From assembly GCF_001477655.1 (NCBI RefSeq), contig NZ_CP011266.1, positions 2,340,001-2,404,000 of the forward strand: a stretch of 64,000 bases of DNA, read 5' to 3'. How positions within the stretch are numbered: the first letter of the stretch is position 1; every line of letters starts with the position of its first letter. Made by a program: the position numbers and the translations under genes. Below, piece by piece: positions 28,924 through 47,281 of this stretch. This DNA is from Methanobrevibacter millerae (GTDB lineage: Archaea; Methanobacteriota; Methanobacteria; Methanobacteriales; Methanobacteriaceae). The notes under the pieces were generated by a model. The model saw only the letters and a list, made by a program, of their open reading frames with translations. It made no database searches and was not told the DNA's origin.

Positions 28924-28936
28924 ATTAAACTACAGT
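28917..28936. terminator. Bidirectional hairpin between nrpR and the DUF gene
   Basis: Perfect arms ACTGTAG/CTACAGT with a 6-nt loop span both convergent stop codons. No strong T run follows on either side, so its efficiency is doubtful. Confidence 0.4.
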
Positions 28937-29218
28937 TACTTCCACAATTTCACCATCATCCTGAGGAGTATGGGTAAATTCAATCAAATCCTCCTTTATT
29001 TCAAGGACATCAATTTCAATTGTAGGATCAAGATGTGTCTGGTCAAGAGACATCAGCATTTTAAACCCCGGTTTTCCAAAATACTCTGAAAAATCCATAT
29101 TCAATATTTCGCCTTCAGCAAAAATTCTATTATACGAAATTTCAAGATTATCATGAATTTTTACATTTTCTTTTAAGTAATTTACAGCTTCATCTACAGA
29201 TAATGATAATTCTTTCAT
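28925..29218 (-). CDS. Uncharacterised archaeal protein (DUF2097-like), copy 1
   Basis: A 97-residue acidic protein. The shared core LEISYNRIFAEGEIL also occurs in the next upstream gene, so the two are tandem paralogues. I think this is the DUF2097 family of Methanobacteria, but the name is tentative. Structure looks like an N-terminal helix (SVDEAVNYLKENVK) and then beta strands ending in VEIDVLEIKEDLIEF-like sequence, suggesting a small beta-barrel (SH3- or Tudor-like). ATG at 29218 follows GAGGTGAATTCT; an upstream GTG at 29227 would overlap that site. It is convergent with nrpR. Confidence 0.65.
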   Translation of the reverse strand: MKELSLSVDEAVNYLKENVKIHDNLEISYNRIFAEGEILNMDFSEYFGKPGFKMLMSLDQTHLDPTIEIDVLEIKEDLIEFTHTPQDDGEIVEVTVV

Positions 29219-29314
29219 AGAATTCACCTCTTACTTATAGTTATATTTCATGATATATATAATTGTTCGTAAGATATAAAACAAAATTAAAAATTAATAA
29301 AAAAAAGAGTTATT

Positions 29315-29608
29315 TTAGAAATCAATTTCAATAATAACTTCTTTATCACCAGAAATATGATTCATTTCTAATAAATCATCATAAATCTCTTTAAAATCAA
29401 TTTCAACAGCCTGGTTTAATATTTCACCATTTAATTGTAAATTAACTCTGAGTCCTTCGCCAGTTTCTTCATCCTCTTCAAGAACACTTAAAACTTCACC
29501 CGGAGCAAAAATACGATTGTAAGAAATTTCTAAAGTATCGCCTACTTTTACATTGTTTCTAACATATTCTATTGCATCATCAACACTCATTAAAAGCTCT
29601 TCTGCCAT
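29315..29608 (-). CDS. Uncharacterised archaeal protein (DUF2097-like), copy 2
   Basis: A 97-residue acidic protein, paralogous to its downstream neighbour: SVDDAIEYVRNNVKVGDTLEIS then YNRIFAPGEVL, and a C-terminal beta segment with VEIDFKEIYDDLLEM. Between the two conserved blocks it has an acidic insert (LEEDEETGEG). It sits between the fwd operon (its stop 44 nt away, upstream, with terminator) and copy 1. The function is unknown. ATG at 29608 is preceded by AAGGTGGTTAT. Confidence 0.65.
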   Translation of the reverse strand: MAEELLMSVDDAIEYVRNNVKVGDTLEISYNRIFAPGEVLSVLEEDEETGEGLRVNLQLNGEILNQAVEIDFKEIYDDLLEMNHISGDKEVIIEIDF

Positions 29609-29640: not shown

Positions 29641-29672
29641 AGAGAAAGGAATTATAAATTCCTGTATTCTCT
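29641..29672 (-). terminator. Terminator of the fwd operon
   Basis: Inner arms GGAATT/AATTCC with a 3-nt loop and outer arms AGAGA/TCTCT overlap the fwdC stop. Leftward sequence CTCTTTTTTTATTTTTTG follows. Confidence 0.75.
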
Positions 29673-30518
29673 GATTGAAGTATATTCGTCGTCTAATTCT
29701 CCGTAAGTAGATAATTTTTCTTTGTTTGCTTCAGCATCTAAGTATAAATTACCTTTACCGTTAAGACCAATATCTCCAGTATATTTAATGTATTTACCTG
29801 GGAATACAACACCACTGTCTTCAGGGTCTTCTACGATACCTTCAAGAACAAATCCTTCAAGTAATCTTCCTAAGAATCCGTGAATAACGATGGTACCGTT
29901 TTTCATTTGTCCACCAGGCCAACGGTTTACATCACCGTCAATTTCAATAATACCTTTGGTCATGTGAATACCAGCTAAGATATCACAGTTACCTTTAACG
30001 TGGATTTTACCACCAGTTAAACATTCACCACATTGTTTACCAGCGTTACCGCCAACAACGATTTCTCCACCAGTCATACCTCTCCATTCACCAATGTAAG
30101 AAGCACCAGTGAATTCTTTGGTATTACCAGTGATTTCAAGGTAACCGCCAGACATTTCTCTTCCAGCGTGAGCAGCTGCATCACCATTAACGAGAATGGA
30201 TCCGCCACTCATTTCAGCACCTACGTGAAGGTCGACACTGCTGTTACAGACAATGTCACCAGCACTCATTTTACAACCAATGTATTTAACTCTGTTTAAG
30301 TCCCCGTTAAGAATCATTTTAACATCAGCAGGTCCTTCAGCTTCACCTTCAACAGTGATGTCGAAGAAGTCTGTGATTGGGAATCTTGAGTTTCCAATAG
30401 GAACTTCATATTTTGCGAAATCAGCTTCAGTCCAGGAGTAAATTTCATCCGGAATTAATTCATCGAATTCTAAAGCGATTGAAGAAGTTTTTATTTGATC
30501 AAATGTAATTGTTTTCAA
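29652..30518 (-). CDS. fwdC: Formylmethanofuran dehydrogenase subunit C
   Basis: A 288-residue right-handed beta-helix of GxxxGxxMxGGxIxVxGxA turns, for example [20 protein letters not shown] and [15 protein letters not shown], related to the GXGXG domain of glutamate synthase. In the Fwd complex it joins the FwdA and FwdB parts. The frame opens at GTG 30527, but GGGGTG overlaps that codon and is placed 6 nt before TTG at 30518, which I choose. It is the last gene of the operon and is followed by a terminator. Confidence 0.92.
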
Positions 30519-30532
30519 ACTAAACACCCCAT

Positions 30533-32242
30533 TTATTTTTCAACATCTACTCTAATTGGGTTAGATACATAATGGTCGTGTACTGGATAGTTTTCCCATT
30601 TTACTGAGTAGTATTGGGTGAAGAACGGCATGATATCGTCGATAACTTTTTGTTCTTGTGCTTCGTATCCTTTTACGTTAACCCAAATGTTTTGACTTTC
30701 TTTAACTTTAACAATTTCTTTGTCTTTTACTAAGATTTGACCATCTTTAATAGTGTAGTCAGCAACATTGAAACCTTTTTCGATTTCAGCATATTGTCTG
30801 GATGGATCAATATCATTAGGATTTATGTCATATACAGCAATATCTGCTCTGTAACCAGGAGTGAGTTCTCCTCTGTCTTCAAATCCGTAGATTTTAGCAG
30901 GTCCAGCTCTTGAGATAACTGCAATGTCGTAGAAATCGTATTCTCTGTCAAGAGTAGGTAAGGTTGTTCTTTTTTCTACCCATTTGTGAACTTCTCTGTT
31001 TTCAATCATTTCAGTTCTTCTTTGGTTACTCATTAACCAAGAGATGATTCTAGGATATCTAGTGAAAGGTCCAGCGTTAGGGTGGTCAGTGGTTAAACAT
31101 ACTTTCCATGGGTCGTCTATGTGTAAGAACAATTCAAGACCAATAGCCCATTGTAAAGAGTTAACAGGGCTTTTACCTGAGTAAATACATGGAATGATAC
31201 CTGCTGCAGTTTCACATTCAATATCTTTGTTGGTCCATTTTAAACCAGATAATTTGAATAAGTCGTATTCCATTGGTGCGTCTGCAGTCATGGTAGTAGT
31301 TTCATCTAAAGTTACTTGACCTACATCACATGTAACATGGTCGTTTTTGTTAATGTATTTAGCAATTTCTTCTGCACCTGATGCAGCATCTCTCCAACTG
31401 TTTCCAGTGTATGCGTGGAATTGGAGGTGGCATAAGTGCATAATTTGATCCCTGATAGTTGCTTTAGAACTTTTCTTAATGTTTTTAACAGCATCCATAG
31501 TTTCAATGGTTGTTGGAACATTACCTGGGTGTCCTAAATCGTTAGGGTGAATGTGTATAGAGTGAGGTAAGTTTAACATTTCGTTAGCTTTAGCTAAAGC
31601 TTGGATAACTTCTTTGGAAGTTACATCGAAGTATGGTGCTTTATCGTTTACACCATGTACGTTCATACCCCATCCCCATGCTTCACTACCACATGGGTTT
31701 ACGATTTTAATTCCGTAACCTTTTGAGATTTTTAACCATGCAGAAATAAATGCGGATAAGTCTTCAATATTATTTTCTTTTGCATATTCCATTACAAACC
31801 AGTTGTTACCGAATAATGGCATAGCTGGAATATCTATGTTAGGAATAGTTGCGATTTCTTCGTGAGTGTGTTTTGCTTCAAGAGGAGGCATAGCTGCTTC
31901 TACAACAGTACCGTAACCTAATCTTGAGTATCTGTAACCGGTTGCAGGACAACTTGGGATAGAGAAACCAGATTCGGATCTTAATACTTTAGTTTTTTGA
32001 GTAACACCTCTTCTGGAATCTTCAGGTCTGTATAATCTTCCAACTACTAATTTTGGACCTGCAACGTGAGCGTGAGGGTCAACACCTGCTGGCATGACTA
32101 TTTTATCGGTAACGTCTAAGACTTTTGCATCGGAAGAAACTTCGTCTACAATAATTCCGTCTTTGAACATGACATCTTTTTTCTCCCCGTTAATTTCATT
32201 AGCTGGGTCGTAGACAATACCATTTTTAAGAATATATTCCAT
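30533..32242 (-). CDS. fwdA: Formylmethanofuran dehydrogenase subunit A
   Basis: A 569-residue amidohydrolase-family enzyme. DPHAHVAG supplies the first metal histidines, [14 protein letters not shown] and LCHLQFHAY more, and TTDHPNAGP the catalytic aspartate. In the Fwd complex, formate made at the tungsten site travels through an internal tunnel to this binuclear zinc site and is condensed with methanofuran. ATG at 32242 follows AAAGGTGATATA; the frame extends 12 codons further upstream into fwdB without a ribosome site. Gaps to fwdC (14 nt) and fwdB (10 nt) show a tight operon. Confidence 0.95.
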
Positions 32243-32252
32243 TATATCACCT

Positions 32253-33629
32253 TTAGAGTGCGTTTGGATTTGGCACATATTTTGGAGCTACGTTTGGCTC
32301 TTCTCTGAGTTTCATTACTCTTTCTTTCAATTCACGGACAATCCATTCGTCATCACGACAGGTTTCTGGTTTGTCGATAGCTTTTTTCATGAAAATAGGA
32401 ACTCCATCCATACGATAACTGGTACCAGCACATTCTACACCGATGAATGAACCTGGTAATACAACATCTGCGAGTTCGGTAGATGGTCCCCAGTGAATAT
32501 CGATTTGAATAACAGGAATGTTAGCTAAGTGTTGGTTTGCTCCATTAGGGAAGTGAGCACCAGGGTCAGCTGCAATAACCATGAAACAATCTGGTTCTTT
32601 CCTTACTAATAAATCGATAGTGTTGGTTTCTCCTAACATGTATCTAGGATATCCTCTACAGTAGTCAACACCGAAAGCGAAACCACATTCGAATGCCATG
32701 AAAATGTTGAAACCGTTTACGTTAAAGTGTCCTCTCATTGGAGTAAGACCCCATTTACTGTATTTGTTTAAGTCTTGAACCATTTTAATAGCAATATCGA
32801 TGTTTCTTTGTTTGGATAATGTGTGAGTTAATCCTAAACCGAAGAATAAAACACCAAATTCAGCACTTTTCATTTCTTCAGCTAATTCGTAAATGTCTTC
32901 TTTAGGAATTCCAGAGATAACATCTTGGTATAATTCTTTTCCTCTTAATACAGCCCTAATAGCGTTGTAGAAACCGTAGTCACCGTTTTGTTCGAATCCA
33001 ATCCATTTGTCAGAACATTTTGCAGTGTCTGAGAATTTTGGATCCATGGTGATAACAGTTCTGTCGAATCTTCCTCTTTGTCTGAAGTATCCACGACAGA
33101 ATACAGCGTATCTTGCCATATGTCTTGGGTGAGAGTTCATTGCGTTACTTCCGGAGTAAGCAATTACGTCTGCTCTGTTTTGTACTTCTCCTAAAGTTTG
33201 GATAGGGTAACCTGCGTTTTGTACCGCTTGTAGGGAAGGACCGTGACAGATAGTTGCTTGGTTATCTAATACTGCACCAATATATTCACCTAAAGCTACT
33301 CCTTCTTTCATACATTCAGTTGAAGTTTCGGACCAACCGTAGAATACTGGTCTTACTGAGTTTGCAATGTATTCAGCAGCTTTATCTAAAGCAGTATCCC
33401 AATCTACTTCCATAAGTTCTCCATTTTCATCCCTAATCATTGGAACAAGTAATCTTTGGTCCATATCTTCCATGATTTTACTTGCACCGAGTCTGCATGC
33501 GTGTCTTACAGCAACTACATGATTGTCTTTTACTAAGTAATCTAAATCATCACAGTTACATCCACAAAATGCACAGGTACAATTTTCTACAATGTAATCG
33601 TAATCAGTTACAGGTGGTTCATAAGTCAT
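32253..33629 (-). CDS. fwdB: Formylmethanofuran dehydrogenase subunit B (catalytic, W/Mo)
   Basis: A 458-residue member of the DMSO reductase superfamily that reduces CO2 to formate at a bis-molybdopterin guanine dinucleotide site. [12 protein letters not shown] near the N-terminus, with a further Cys in RHACRLG, binds a [4Fe-4S] cluster. The metal ligand is Cys128 in TICHGPS, not selenocysteine. The sequence does not tell tungsten from molybdenum. ATG at 33629 is preceded by GGGAGGAG; a TTG at 33635 is closer to that site and is also possible. It overlaps fwdD by 11 nt. It needs the cofactor made by the divergent mobB-moaA operon. Confidence 0.93.
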
Positions 33630-34188
33630 GATCAATCAACTCCTCCCATTTACGTCCTTTGTAAACTGGTAATTCTCCTAATGATTCCATGTTTTCAACA
33701 GTGTCATCATCAGTTTCGTCAACATATTTTTTGTATACCCATCTCATTAAGTCTGCCATGAGTAATACTTTTCTGTCTGTTTTTTCAACAGTACATTTAA
33801 TTCCTTTGTATGTAGGGTCAGAACAGCAGTAAGTGTCGTGACTTACAACAGTGTTAGCCCAAGGTCCTTTACAAATAAATACAGTACCTTCGTGAGGTGC
33901 GTCTCTTGATACAGCACAGTTTACAACAACTTCACCAAAGTCAGTTTTTACTAAAACGGTATCCCAGTTGTTTACACCTAATTTTGCCATATCTCTTGGA
34001 TCCATATAACAGGTTCCTGAAGCATTTTTATATTCTTCTTTTAAAGTAGAACCTCTTTTCTTACATGCACCCTGATAGATGTCAGATCCAGTGTTTAACA
34101 TACATTTGAGTACATCTGTATTTCCTTCACCTGTAATTTTTACATCAGGTACTACTGGTTTTTCTAAATAAGTATTAGCGTAATGCAC
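33619..34188 (-). CDS. fwdD: Formylmethanofuran dehydrogenase subunit D
   Basis: A 189-residue molydopterin dinucleotide-binding domain protein. [27 protein letters not shown] and [14 protein letters not shown] match the C-terminal beta-barrel domain that closes over the pterin in other members and is a separate subunit here. The start is GTG at 34188, 7 nt after GGGGG; the open frame continues to 34251 inside fwdG but without a ribosome site. It overlaps fwdB by 11 nt. Confidence 0.9.
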
Positions 34189-34199
34189 AATTATTCCCC

Positions 34200-34430
34200 C
34201 TATTCTAACCATATAGCATTTACTGGGCAAAACATTTGACAGGTTCCACATAATTCACATTTATCTGGACTGAAAAGTTTAATAAACCCATTTTCTACCA
34301 TGATAACTACTTCTTCAGTTTTAGCACCATTACCACCAGCATTTTCTGGGCTAATAGCTGCGTTAACAGGACAAGCAATTACACAAATTCCGCATCCTAA
34401 ACAATTATCTTGATTTACTTTAAGTTCCAT
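34200..34430 (-). CDS. fwdG: Formylmethanofuran dehydrogenase subunit G (2[4Fe-4S] ferredoxin)
   Basis: A 76-residue ferredoxin with two motifs, [12 protein letters not shown] and [12 protein letters not shown], for two [4Fe-4S] clusters. It carries electrons between FwdF and the catalytic FwdBD part. The gaps to fwdD (11 nt) and fwdF (8 nt) show the operon continues. ATG at 34430 follows AGGTGATTCG. Confidence 0.92.
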
Positions 34431-34438
34431 CGAATCAC

Positions 34439-35536
34439 CTAGTCTTTAATTGCATTTAAAGCATCTGTCCAAGTTGCTGAATTGGTTGGAGTGTGATCAA
34501 TATCAGTTCTTTTTACAGTTATTGCACCGTTAGGACATGCTTTTGCACATGCTTTACATTTGATACAGTAATCAGGTTGTGCAACAATGTGATCTAATCT
34601 TGAACCTGGACCAGTTGAAACTGGGAATGCTAATGCATTACATTTACAAATATCTACACAAGCACCACATGCTTGACATTTTTCTTGGTCAACTTCAATT
34701 GTACCTTCAAATGGTTTTTTAGCTTTAGCTGCATCAGTTGGGCAGACTCCTTCACACCATCCGCAGTAAACACAGAGTTCACTGTCAATGACTGAGTTAC
34801 CTTTAACAACAGCTTTTGAAAGGTCAATATCGTATTCACCGTATGAACAAATTCTACATAATGCTTTGATAGCGTTAGTAGGACATGCTTTTTTACATAC
34901 TAAACAGTAAACACATTTGTCGGTGTTGATTTCGATAGATTCTTTACCAGTTTCTTTATCAACAATAATTGCTTCTGCAGGACATAATTCTTCACATACA
35001 CCACAGTAAATACAATCATCATCATTTACTTCAATTTCACCGGTTACTAAATCAGCACGGTCTGGTAATGTTCTGTCAATTACGATAGCATCACGTGGAC
35101 ATGCAATTTCACATCTTTTACAATAGACACATTCGTCATCGTCGATTTCTGAAAATGCGTTGTAGTGAGGATATGCTTCAATTTCTCTGATTGGTACTCC
35201 ATCAATAGTTAATACTAATGCGTCAACAGGACATAATCCGCTACACATACCACATAATACACATTTGTCTTCATTAATACTAATTCTTTGAACATCAAAT
35301 TCGTCATGGAAATTCTGTGCGATTTTTTCATGACCACTGAAGTAGACATTATTAGCTACTTGAACACGAGAGTCAATAGCAATCTCATTCAATGTAATTG
35401 CGCCAACAGGACAAGTAGACTCACAAATTCCACATCCGATACAGACATGATCTTTGAAAGATAAATTTCTTACTTCCTCCGCTGACCTTGTAATGTCAAA
35501 GTTATTGTCATTAACTTCTTTCAAATTTCTTATCAT
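34439..35536 (-). CDS. fwdF: Formylmethanofuran dehydrogenase subunit F (polyferredoxin)
   Basis: A 365-residue polyferredoxin with eight CxxCxxCxxxC groups (for example CIGCGICESTCP, CVLCGMCSGLCP, CVYCKRCEIACP, CIYCGVCEELCP), giving eight [4Fe-4S] clusters. It forms the electron wire of the Fwd complex and connects it to heterodisulfide reductase/hydrogenase or formate dehydrogenase. An additional CRICSYGEYD is an incomplete motif between the fifth and sixth clusters. It starts 2 nt after the stop of the HTH-ferredoxin gene, so that gene is in the same transcript. Confidence 0.93.
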   Translation of the reverse strand: MIRNLKEVNDNNFDITRSAEEVRNLSFKDHVCIGCGICESTCPVGAITLNEIAIDSRVQVANNVYFSGHEKIAQNFHDEFDVQRISINEDKCVLCGMCSGLCPVDALVLTIDGVPIREIEAYPHYNAFSEIDDDECVYCKRCEIACPRDAIVIDRTLPDRADLVTGEIEVNDDDCIYCGVCEELCPAEAIIVDKETGKESIEINTDKCVYCLVCKKACPTNAIKALCRICSYGEYDIDLSKAVVKGNSVIDSELCVYCGWCEGVCPTDAAKAKKPFEGTIEVDQEKCQACGACVDICKCNALAFPVSTGPGSRLDHIVAQPDYCIKCKACAKACPNGAITVKRTDIDHTPTNSATWTDALNAIKD

Positions 35537-35988: not shown

Positions 35989-35998
35989 TTGAACCACC

Positions 35999-36017
35999 AT
36001 GTGTAATGATAACACAT
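35999..36017. promoter_or_regulatory. Operator ATGTGT-N7-ACACAT at the fwd promoter
   Basis: ATGTGT-AATGATA-ACACAT, arms of 6 bp, overlaps the expected transcription start of the fwd operon (TATA-like TATTTATATA on the leftward strand at 36027-36036). The same motif occurs at 36323-36341 upstream of mobB. Confidence 0.65.
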
Positions 36018-36305
36018 ATGTTCATCTATATAAATATACTTGCCTACTAGATTAAAGTCGAAATACTTAAATATAACTGTGGGAATACTACACTTTTTAA
36101 AAATCAAATATTTATTAAATTAAATTAAAAATTATAAGACAAAATAAAAATAATTAATTTTTTAAAATCAAAAATAATAATCATTTATAAAATGAATAAT
36201 TAAATTTAAAGTCAATAATTTTAAATAATTACTCATTTTTGAAAAAAATTAGTAATACTATAATATAATGAAAGTATTACAAAAATGGCAAAAACATGCT
36301 AATTT

Positions 36306-36323
36306 TTTTAGGTTTACCTAAAA
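36306..36323. promoter_or_regulatory. Palindrome TTTTAGG-N4-CCTAAAA upstream of mobB
   Basis: Perfect 7-bp arms around TTTA. A very similar TTTAGG-AATA-CCTAAA stands at 43991-44006 upstream of fdhC. It abuts the ATGTGT-N7-ACACAT site, making a double operator. Confidence 0.6.
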
Positions 36324-36341
36324 TGTGTAGTAACTACACAT
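36323..36341. promoter_or_regulatory. Operator ATGTGT-N7-ACACAT upstream of mobB
   Basis: ATGTGTAGTAACTACACAT is a perfect 19-bp palindrome (9-bp arms, one central base). Its outer six bases and spacing equal those of the fwd-side site at 35999-36017. Confidence 0.7.
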
Positions 36342-43990: not shown

Positions 43991-44006
43991 TTTAGGAATA
44001 CCTAAA
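43991..44006. promoter_or_regulatory. Palindrome TTTAGG-N4-CCTAAA upstream of fdhC
   Basis: TTTAGG-AATA-CCTAAA; 14 of 16 positions equal those at 36307-36322 upstream of mobB. It is about 230 bases before fdhC, farther than a simple repressor site. Confidence 0.5.
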
Positions 44007-46411: not shown

Positions 46412-47281
46412 ATGAAACTTGAAAGCAAAGGACTGATTAGCTTAGAGATAAATGGTGAAATTTATGGTTATAAATTATATCAAAGTTTGGAGTCGTTAAA
46501 CAGAACCCATTCACAGCGAAAATCTGCCAAGGAACTAAATATTTCACATACTGTTTTCAATAGAAGAATACTTAAAGCTGAATCAAAATTAGGAATTAAG
46601 TTAACTCAAAAGAAAGGCAATGGCAGTATCCTCACAAATGACGGATTGAGACTTTTGGAGGAATACCGCAAATACTTAATTCAAATTGCTGAACCGAACA
46701 ACATCAATATTGCCGGAGGACACATCAGTTCAAGCCTTTTAGAAAGTATCGACTTGCCGTTCAACATTAACGTTTATAGCAGCAGTGACGAAGACGCATT
46801 CAAATTGGCAAAAAGAGGAGTGGTAGATTTATTGACATTGGATGACCCTTTAATTGCTTATGAACGTGACATAAACTTTATTCCAATAGCCTATGACTAT
46901 CTTGTCCTGATTTCAAGTCCCGGTTCAAAAAAAATCACCAGCATCAAAGACCTTGACAATTTGGATTTTGTCAAAGTGGAAGGTTCTGCTCAAAGGCTTG
47001 CATGGAACAGTCTTGAACATTATGATTTGAATTACAATATCAAATATAGAGTTAATTCACAGTTTGATGCATTCAAATTAGTAAAGAATTCCAAAAACTT
47101 ACATAGTTTCCTGAATGCAAGTTATTTTAATGGAAATGAAATATTAAAGTTTGATACTAGACATGTTATCAGTTTAGTTAAAGTTAACGATGATGACCCG
47201 AAAACTGATGATTTAATTAATTATTTATTGACTAAAGCTCAAAAAGATATCGAAAATCAGGGTTTTATACCCATGGATTAA
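46412..47281 (+). CDS. ModE/LysR-like regulator with periplasmic-binding-type domain
   Basis: A 289-residue protein. Residues 25-90 are a ModE/LysR winged helix (SQRKSAKELNISHTVFNRR, then KLGIKLTQ and TNDGLRLLEEY). Residues 95-289 resemble a type 2 periplasmic-binding fold (NINVYSSSDEDAFKLAKRG, VDLLTLDDPL and VLISSPGSKKITSIKDL). The N-terminal half is close in layout to molybdate regulators, and proteins with this build control tungstate and molybdate genes in other prokaryotes. The ligand cannot be read. It is 650 nt past fdhD, divergent from hxlB, in a neighbourhood rich in Mo/W enzymes. Confidence 0.75.
   Translation: MKLESKGLISLEINGEIYGYKLYQSLESLNRTHSQRKSAKELNISHTVFNRRILKAESKLGIKLTQKKGNGSILTNDGLRLLEEYRKYLIQIAEPNNINIAGGHISSSLLESIDLPFNINVYSSSDEDAFKLAKRGVVDLLTLDDPLIAYERDINFIPIAYDYLVLISSPGSKKITSIKDLDNLDFVKVEGSAQRLAWNSLEHYDLNYNIKYRVNSQFDAFKLVKNSKNLHSFLNASYFNGNEILKFDTRHVISLVKVNDDDPKTDDLINYLLTKAQKDIENQGFIPMD

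Follow-up and report, generated by a model that had tools for sequence, protein, structure and literature searches.

Comparison of the fwd/mobB region across the Methanobacteriales indicates that the ATGTGT-N7-ACACAT palindromes found there are real binding sites for a regulator, conserved across this order of methanogens. Their likeliest binder is FwdH, a helix-turn-helix (HTH) ferredoxin encoded by the first gene of the fwd operon, and we consider it likely that this protein is an autoregulator that probably represses fwd. FwdH is usually counted as an enzyme subunit, and these results suggest that this long-standing "subunit H" is a transcription factor. They also suggest that the entry of CO2 into methane formation is coupled to iron or redox state. 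Among the Methanobacteriales are the main methane producers of the rumen and the human gut, and how the first step of hydrogenotrophic methanogenesis is controlled in this order is largely undescribed. A conserved operator together with a named candidate regulator makes the control of fwd directly testable.

Palindromes and promoter anatomy of the fwd/mobB region

The features of the region are listed in the table, with coordinates referring to the window, that is, the whole stretch of 64,000 nucleotides analyzed here. The fwd operon runs on the minus strand in the order fwdH-F-G-D-B-A-C, with mobB-moaA divergent from it and followed downstream by an acyltransferase gene and then the fdh genes. 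In genomes of family f3, one of which is presumably M. thermautotrophicus delta-H, the HTH-ferredoxin gene directly precedes fwdF, which identifies it by position as FwdH. The published order of the tungsten operon in Methanothermobacter is fwdHFGDACB (PMC3087415). MobB carries a C-terminal extension of about 225 residues with no Pfam match, and two tandem DUF2097 genes (28925-29608) follow fwdC.

Table. Genes and sequence elements of the fwd/mobB region (O1 to O3, putative operators; RBS, ribosome-binding site)
Feature	Position	Strand	Description and basis
fwdD, fwdB, fwdA, fwdC	29652..34212	-	ORF list; gene order same in relatives
fwdG-like ferredoxin	34200..34430	-	ORF list; place conserved in relatives
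fwdF, polyferredoxin subunit	34439..35536	-	NCBIfam NF042909
HTH-ferredoxin (FwdH by operon position), 149 aa	35539..35988	-	HTH_3-like domain + 2[4Fe-4S] ferredoxin; Pfam
RBS GGTGGTT	35992..35998	-	immediately after O1; GGTGR after O1 conserved in relatives
O1, putative operator	35999..36017	-	ATGTGTTATCATTACACAT in fwd direction; leader, directly before RBS; exact match
TATA-like box 2	36027..36038	-	TATATTTATATA; conserved (alignment of relatives)
TATA-like box 1	36067..36076	-	TTATATTTAA; abuts O2; conserved (alignment of relatives)
O2, putative operator, weaker	36077..36095	-	AAGTGTAGTATTCCCACAG; abuts TATA-like box 1; PWM 13.6
Iron-box-like palindrome	36307..36322	.	TTTAGGTTTACCTAAA; contiguous with O3
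O3, putative operator	36323..36341	+	ATGTGTAGTAACTACACAT; 58 bp before mobB start; exact match
mobB, start of mobB-moaA	36400..37434	+	Pfam MobB
moaA	37437..38369	+	Pfam Radical_SAM + Mob_synth_C
ModE-like LysR-type protein	46412..47281		LysR-type HTH; about 10 kb from palindromes

The preliminary description of this DNA had placed one copy of the palindrome at each end of the divergent region, the second within a perfect 19-bp palindrome before mobB, and inspection of the sequence bears this out. O1 (ATGTGTAATGATAACACAT on the forward strand) matches the pattern exactly, with its symmetry broken at one inner pair, and O3 forms a full 19-bp dyad round one central base. These are the only two exact matches in the 2,543,538-bp genome, where the reversed control pattern has none, so the sites are not frequent at random. 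A genome search with the full consensus ATGTGTAGTNACTACACAT, allowing up to three mismatches, again returned only the two strong sites. According to a Markov simulation, about 0.03 exact sites are expected per 64 kb, or about one per genome. A single exact copy is therefore unremarkable; the surprise is to find two within 324 bp, since the probability of a second exact site that close to the first is about 3e-4. One-mismatch searches of the same genome stayed at background level (7 matches against 5 for the reversed pattern), and the argument is consequently carried by the isolation and conservation of the sites. We rejected a large regulon in this genome, given only two strong sites at up to three mismatches and one-mismatch searches at background, and took a one-mismatch site inside the por region as chance.

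A position weight matrix (PWM) built from relatives ranked O3 best in the window (29.8) and O1 second (23.3). Third in this ranking was a degenerate copy, O2 (CTGTGGGAATACTACACTT on the forward strand), which had been overlooked; the two sites first described are thus both real, but the region holds three. The O2 score is not significant alone, as simulated 64-kb maxima average 10.8, and O2 is credible because its position is conserved in relatives.

The arrangement of these sites relative to the predicted promoters is informative. About ten bases separate TATA-like box 2 from O1, which extends as far as the RBS. Since the usual archaeal TATA-to-start spacing is about 25 bp, the fwd start predicted from this box would fall inside O1, in agreement with the earlier placement of this copy over the fwd transcription start, itself a predicted position. 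With O2 abutting box 1 and O1 covering the predicted start, occupancy of the sites should hinder transcription, which points to repression. In the genus alignment, conserved blocks occur only at the operators, the TATA-like boxes, an TCTAGTAGG element, the iron-box-like site and one further inverted repeat, and the AT-rich DNA between these blocks has diverged.

Conservation of the sites and their targets

The exact pattern gave 107 matches in 120 family genomes versus 4 for the reversed control (sums over the per-genome table), and nearly all of the listed matches adjoin the HTH-ferredoxin gene. Loci from 80 relatives have sites at about -32, -110 and -356 from this gene, and the first two are also present in 13 further loci from families f2, f3 and f4. 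We scored 94 loci, including the window and covering families f1 to f4, counting a PWM score above 5 as a site; the matrix was partly trained on these same loci, while the exact-pattern counts are independent of it. O2 reached this score in 90 of the 94 loci and O1 in 64, at about -31 to -35, being eroded in the other 30; at least one of the two is present in 91 of the 94. Background windows reached it in 29 of 8,535 cases. The O1-O2 spacing is 77 to 79 bp in 62 of the 63 loci that have both, and two fwd operators are found in every family of the order with data, positioned at roughly -109 and -31 relative to the first gene. Hence, the possibility raised in the preliminary description that the sites might not be conserved in relatives finds no support in either the exact counts or the scored loci.

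Of the three loci that lack both sites at these positions, one (L117) has two sites 79 bp apart that are shifted upstream. In L088 and L090 (from genomes G021 and G044), O1 and O2 are both degenerate, and the regulation of fwd in these genomes, the first of which is probably M. smithii, may differ. Many relatives are represented by incomplete metagenome assemblies. Where genus members lack the HTH-ferredoxin, they have only paralogous FwdF matches (43-47%), and the fwd contig is probably missing from their assemblies, except in G008 and G013, where FwdF is absent altogether. G013 has neither FwdF nor a clear HTH-ferredoxin, yet it contains one exact palindrome. In G008, likewise devoid of FwdF and a clear HTH-ferredoxin, ATGTGTAGGTAATACACAC lies about 100 bp before a set of ferredoxin, V4R-like and hydrogenase-small-subunit-like genes (L185).

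Changes in gene order reveal which genes the sites accompany. Where mobB is divergent and close, the mobB-side copy lies at about -356 from the HTH-ferredoxin gene, some 58 bp before mobB. Where the fwdH-mobB gap is longer, mobB has its own copy (at about -547) and a copy at -357 remains; where an extra polyferredoxin gene is inserted, mobB's own copy is found at about -2,000 and that at -357 is again retained. Lineages in which mobB-moaA lies upstream and is codirectional lack the -356 copy and retain O1 and O2. Because this copy is kept at a fixed distance from fwd and mobB has a copy of its own after moving, the site appears to serve both mobB and fwd. The proposal that one regulator matches fwd with mobB-moaA is therefore well supported by the comparison. 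O1 and O2 themselves remain beside the HTH-ferredoxin gene in all three situations, with mobB divergent, codirectional or distant. The extra polyferredoxin gene is an FwdF paralogue (36-40% identical) located between mobB and fwdH in L080, L081, L082, L093, L098 and L101; at least two of these six loci show a separate iron-box-like site upstream of it.

A weaker palindrome precedes hdrA outside the window, at positions 2456474-2456492 of the same genome. This site was chosen by eye from the one-mismatch matches, which are themselves at background in this genome. A site scoring above 10 is present in the hdrA promoter of 15 of 18 genus genomes and in none of 22 genomes outside the genus. Conservation within this one genus makes hdrA a probable further target there.

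FwdH as candidate regulator and rival explanations

All ten aligned HTH-ferredoxins match HTH_3 (PF01381) at E<=0.01, a family that typically binds such dyads. The window protein scores 20.7 bits for PF01381, below the curated cut-off of 23, and passes HTH_23. The recognition helix (RST[VI]SHYLNGRN) is near invariant among HTH-ferredoxins that are 50-100% identical, and both CxxCxxCxxxC motifs are invariant in the ten aligned members, all of which match Fer4_21. Structure prediction gave a helical region at residues 1-90 of FwdH with high confidence and modelled the Fe-S domain poorly; the matches in a fold search were mostly HTH proteins, none of them significant. A sequence search of the PDB recovered the FwdF of Fwd complexes and no FwdH-like chain, consistent with FwdH not being a stable enzyme subunit. 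On the DNA side, nearly all sequences keep the same letters in the core GTG(T)-N7-(A)CAC, as would be expected if a protein contacts them, and the half-sites lie one turn apart.

The HTH-ferredoxin and the palindrome accompany each other throughout the order. In genus g3, probably Methanosphaera, fwdDBAC, hdrA and the ModE-like gene are retained. The genus lacks the HTH-ferredoxin, lacks FwdF in all eight genomes tested, and has no palindrome except for one stray match; the reversed control pattern also matches once in the genome concerned. This joint loss of the HTH-ferredoxin and the palindrome counts as essentially one event in one clade. One of the tandem DUF2097 genes stays with fwdDBAC in g3.

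The preliminary description had named two candidate binders, the HTH-ferredoxin and the ModE-like LysR-type protein. The latter, responding to molybdate or tungstate, would suit targets that are a Mo/W enzyme and the genes for its cofactor; it has an HTH of the LysR type, is encoded close by, and the T-N11-A spacing of LysR-type boxes fits the dyad. However, each of the 40 genomes sampled from the order encodes the protein, those of g3 among them, and g3 essentially lacks the palindrome; a PWM search of the window gave no good site near the ModE-like gene itself. The HTH-ferredoxin follows the site and the ModE-like protein does not. Consequently, the former is favored and the latter, being universal, was rejected as the favored binder; that it binds the sites is very unlikely. 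A different regulator, encoded elsewhere, deserves more weight, although we still regard it as unlikely. The HTH-ferredoxin would then be an operon passenger, for example, an electron carrier or assembly factor. A regulator need not be encoded at its target, FwdH binding is itself deduced from sequence, the dyad shares its T-N11-A spacing with LysR-type boxes, and an exact site occurs in G013, where no HTH-ferredoxin is clear. In addition, co-loss in essentially one clade allows another regulator to have been lost at the same time. Against this stand the persistence of the sites beside the HTH-ferredoxin gene through every gene-order change seen, their loss together with it in g3, and an HTH that is intact and highly conserved.

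Explanations that dispense with a DNA-binding protein fare worse. A leader RNA hairpin, with the other copies being incidental, would suit the O1 dyad, which lies within the predicted leader directly beside the Shine-Dalgarno sequence. Nevertheless, the same sequence occurs upstream of a TATA-like box (O2), before mobB and before hdrA, the T4-A16 and G5-C15 pairs are fixed in all 77 distinct O2 sequences without covariation, and no Rfam match exceeded the threshold, which leaves a hairpin highly improbable. A chance repeat without function could appeal to the one exact site expected per genome and to one-mismatch sites at background, but it is refuted by conservation, with the excess of exact matches over the reversed control in family genomes and positions fixed from f1 to f4, and it retains next to no probability.

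The computation shows that the sites exist, that their geometry is fixed, and that they are conserved and co-occur with FwdH; from this we infer the binding by FwdH, the sign of the regulation and the signal. The palindromes would be operators of one dedicated transcription factor, most likely FwdH, a dimer of which would bind ATGTGTARTNAYTACACAT through its Cro/C1-type HTH. In front of fwd, binding would block transcription, because O2 lies against a TATA-like box and O1 spans the start predicted for a second promoter; this autoregulation is probably repressive. FwdH would also bind before the divergent mobB-moaA and, weakly, before hdrA in this genus, and the CO2-fixing enzyme would thereby be matched with its pterin cofactor and its electron-bifurcating partner. 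Its two [4Fe-4S] clusters would set DNA binding according to redox state, iron or Fe-S supply; the Fe-S domain and the iron-box-like neighbor point to iron or redox, rather than molybdenum or tungsten, as the signal. The chances are about even for the full reading. In it, FwdH would be an Fe-S-sensing autoregulator rather than a subunit of the enzyme, and would be conserved in the whole order Methanobacteriales; it would adjust the amount of the CO2-entry enzyme together with cofactor synthesis and, in Methanobrevibacter, with hdrA, and would act beside an iron-responsive regulator at a composite site.

Known systems and neighboring elements

The papers searched contained no described fwd/mobB regulon, no described regulon with this site and no study of FwdH as a regulator. 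For control of the first step of methanogenesis they yielded only Tfx, which concerns the Mo isoenzyme. In Methanothermobacter, Tfx is an HTH protein encoded next to fmdECB, the Mo formylmethanofuran dehydrogenase operon, and binds near its promoter (PMC3087415). Both Tfx and FwdH are thus HTH proteins of DNA-binding type encoded beside a formylmethanofuran dehydrogenase operon. However, the operon is fmd for Tfx and fwd here, Tfx is a separate frame before its target operon, and the window FwdH carries a 2[4Fe-4S] domain and has no Tfx family match among its Pfam hits. Cro/C1-type autoregulators (HTH_3, XRE), such as lambda CI and C.Esp1396I, share with FwdH the HTH_3 domain, dyads with half-sites about one helical turn apart, several operators per promoter and, as expected here, autoregulation by promoter occlusion. 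They differ in that FwdH would act at an archaeal promoter with a ferredoxin-type Fe-S sensor, and its operators are 78 bp apart instead of adjacent. Control by a ModE or LysR-type molybdate regulator would tie the genes for the molybdoenzyme and its cofactor to the supply of Mo/W, but the ModE-like protein does not follow the palindrome across genomes. This is a new regulon under a known kind of control, and an HTH-ferredoxin regulator is unusual.

The element next to O3 has the form of DtxR/IdeR iron boxes (TTAGG-N-CCTAA dyads), and similar sites precede feoB and rubrerythrin; it is distinct from the ATGTGT palindrome. The pattern TTAGGTNNNCCTAA occurs 6-19 times per genome and strand versus 0-4 times when reversed, and several of the sites examined precede feoB or a rubrerythrin gene. 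From these neighbors and the resemblance, the element may be read as responding to iron. In many relatives the iron-box-like site accompanies the -356 copy, and none was seen at mobB's separate copy. A second such site, at 43991-44006 (TTTAGGAATACCTAAA), lies between fdhC and an FmdE-like gene and suggests shared control of formate dehydrogenase. Finally, the inverted repeat GTAATAC-N15-GTATTAC at 36252-36280 has half-sites that are conserved in the genus and lie 22 bp apart, centre to centre; NikR sites have this same spacing.
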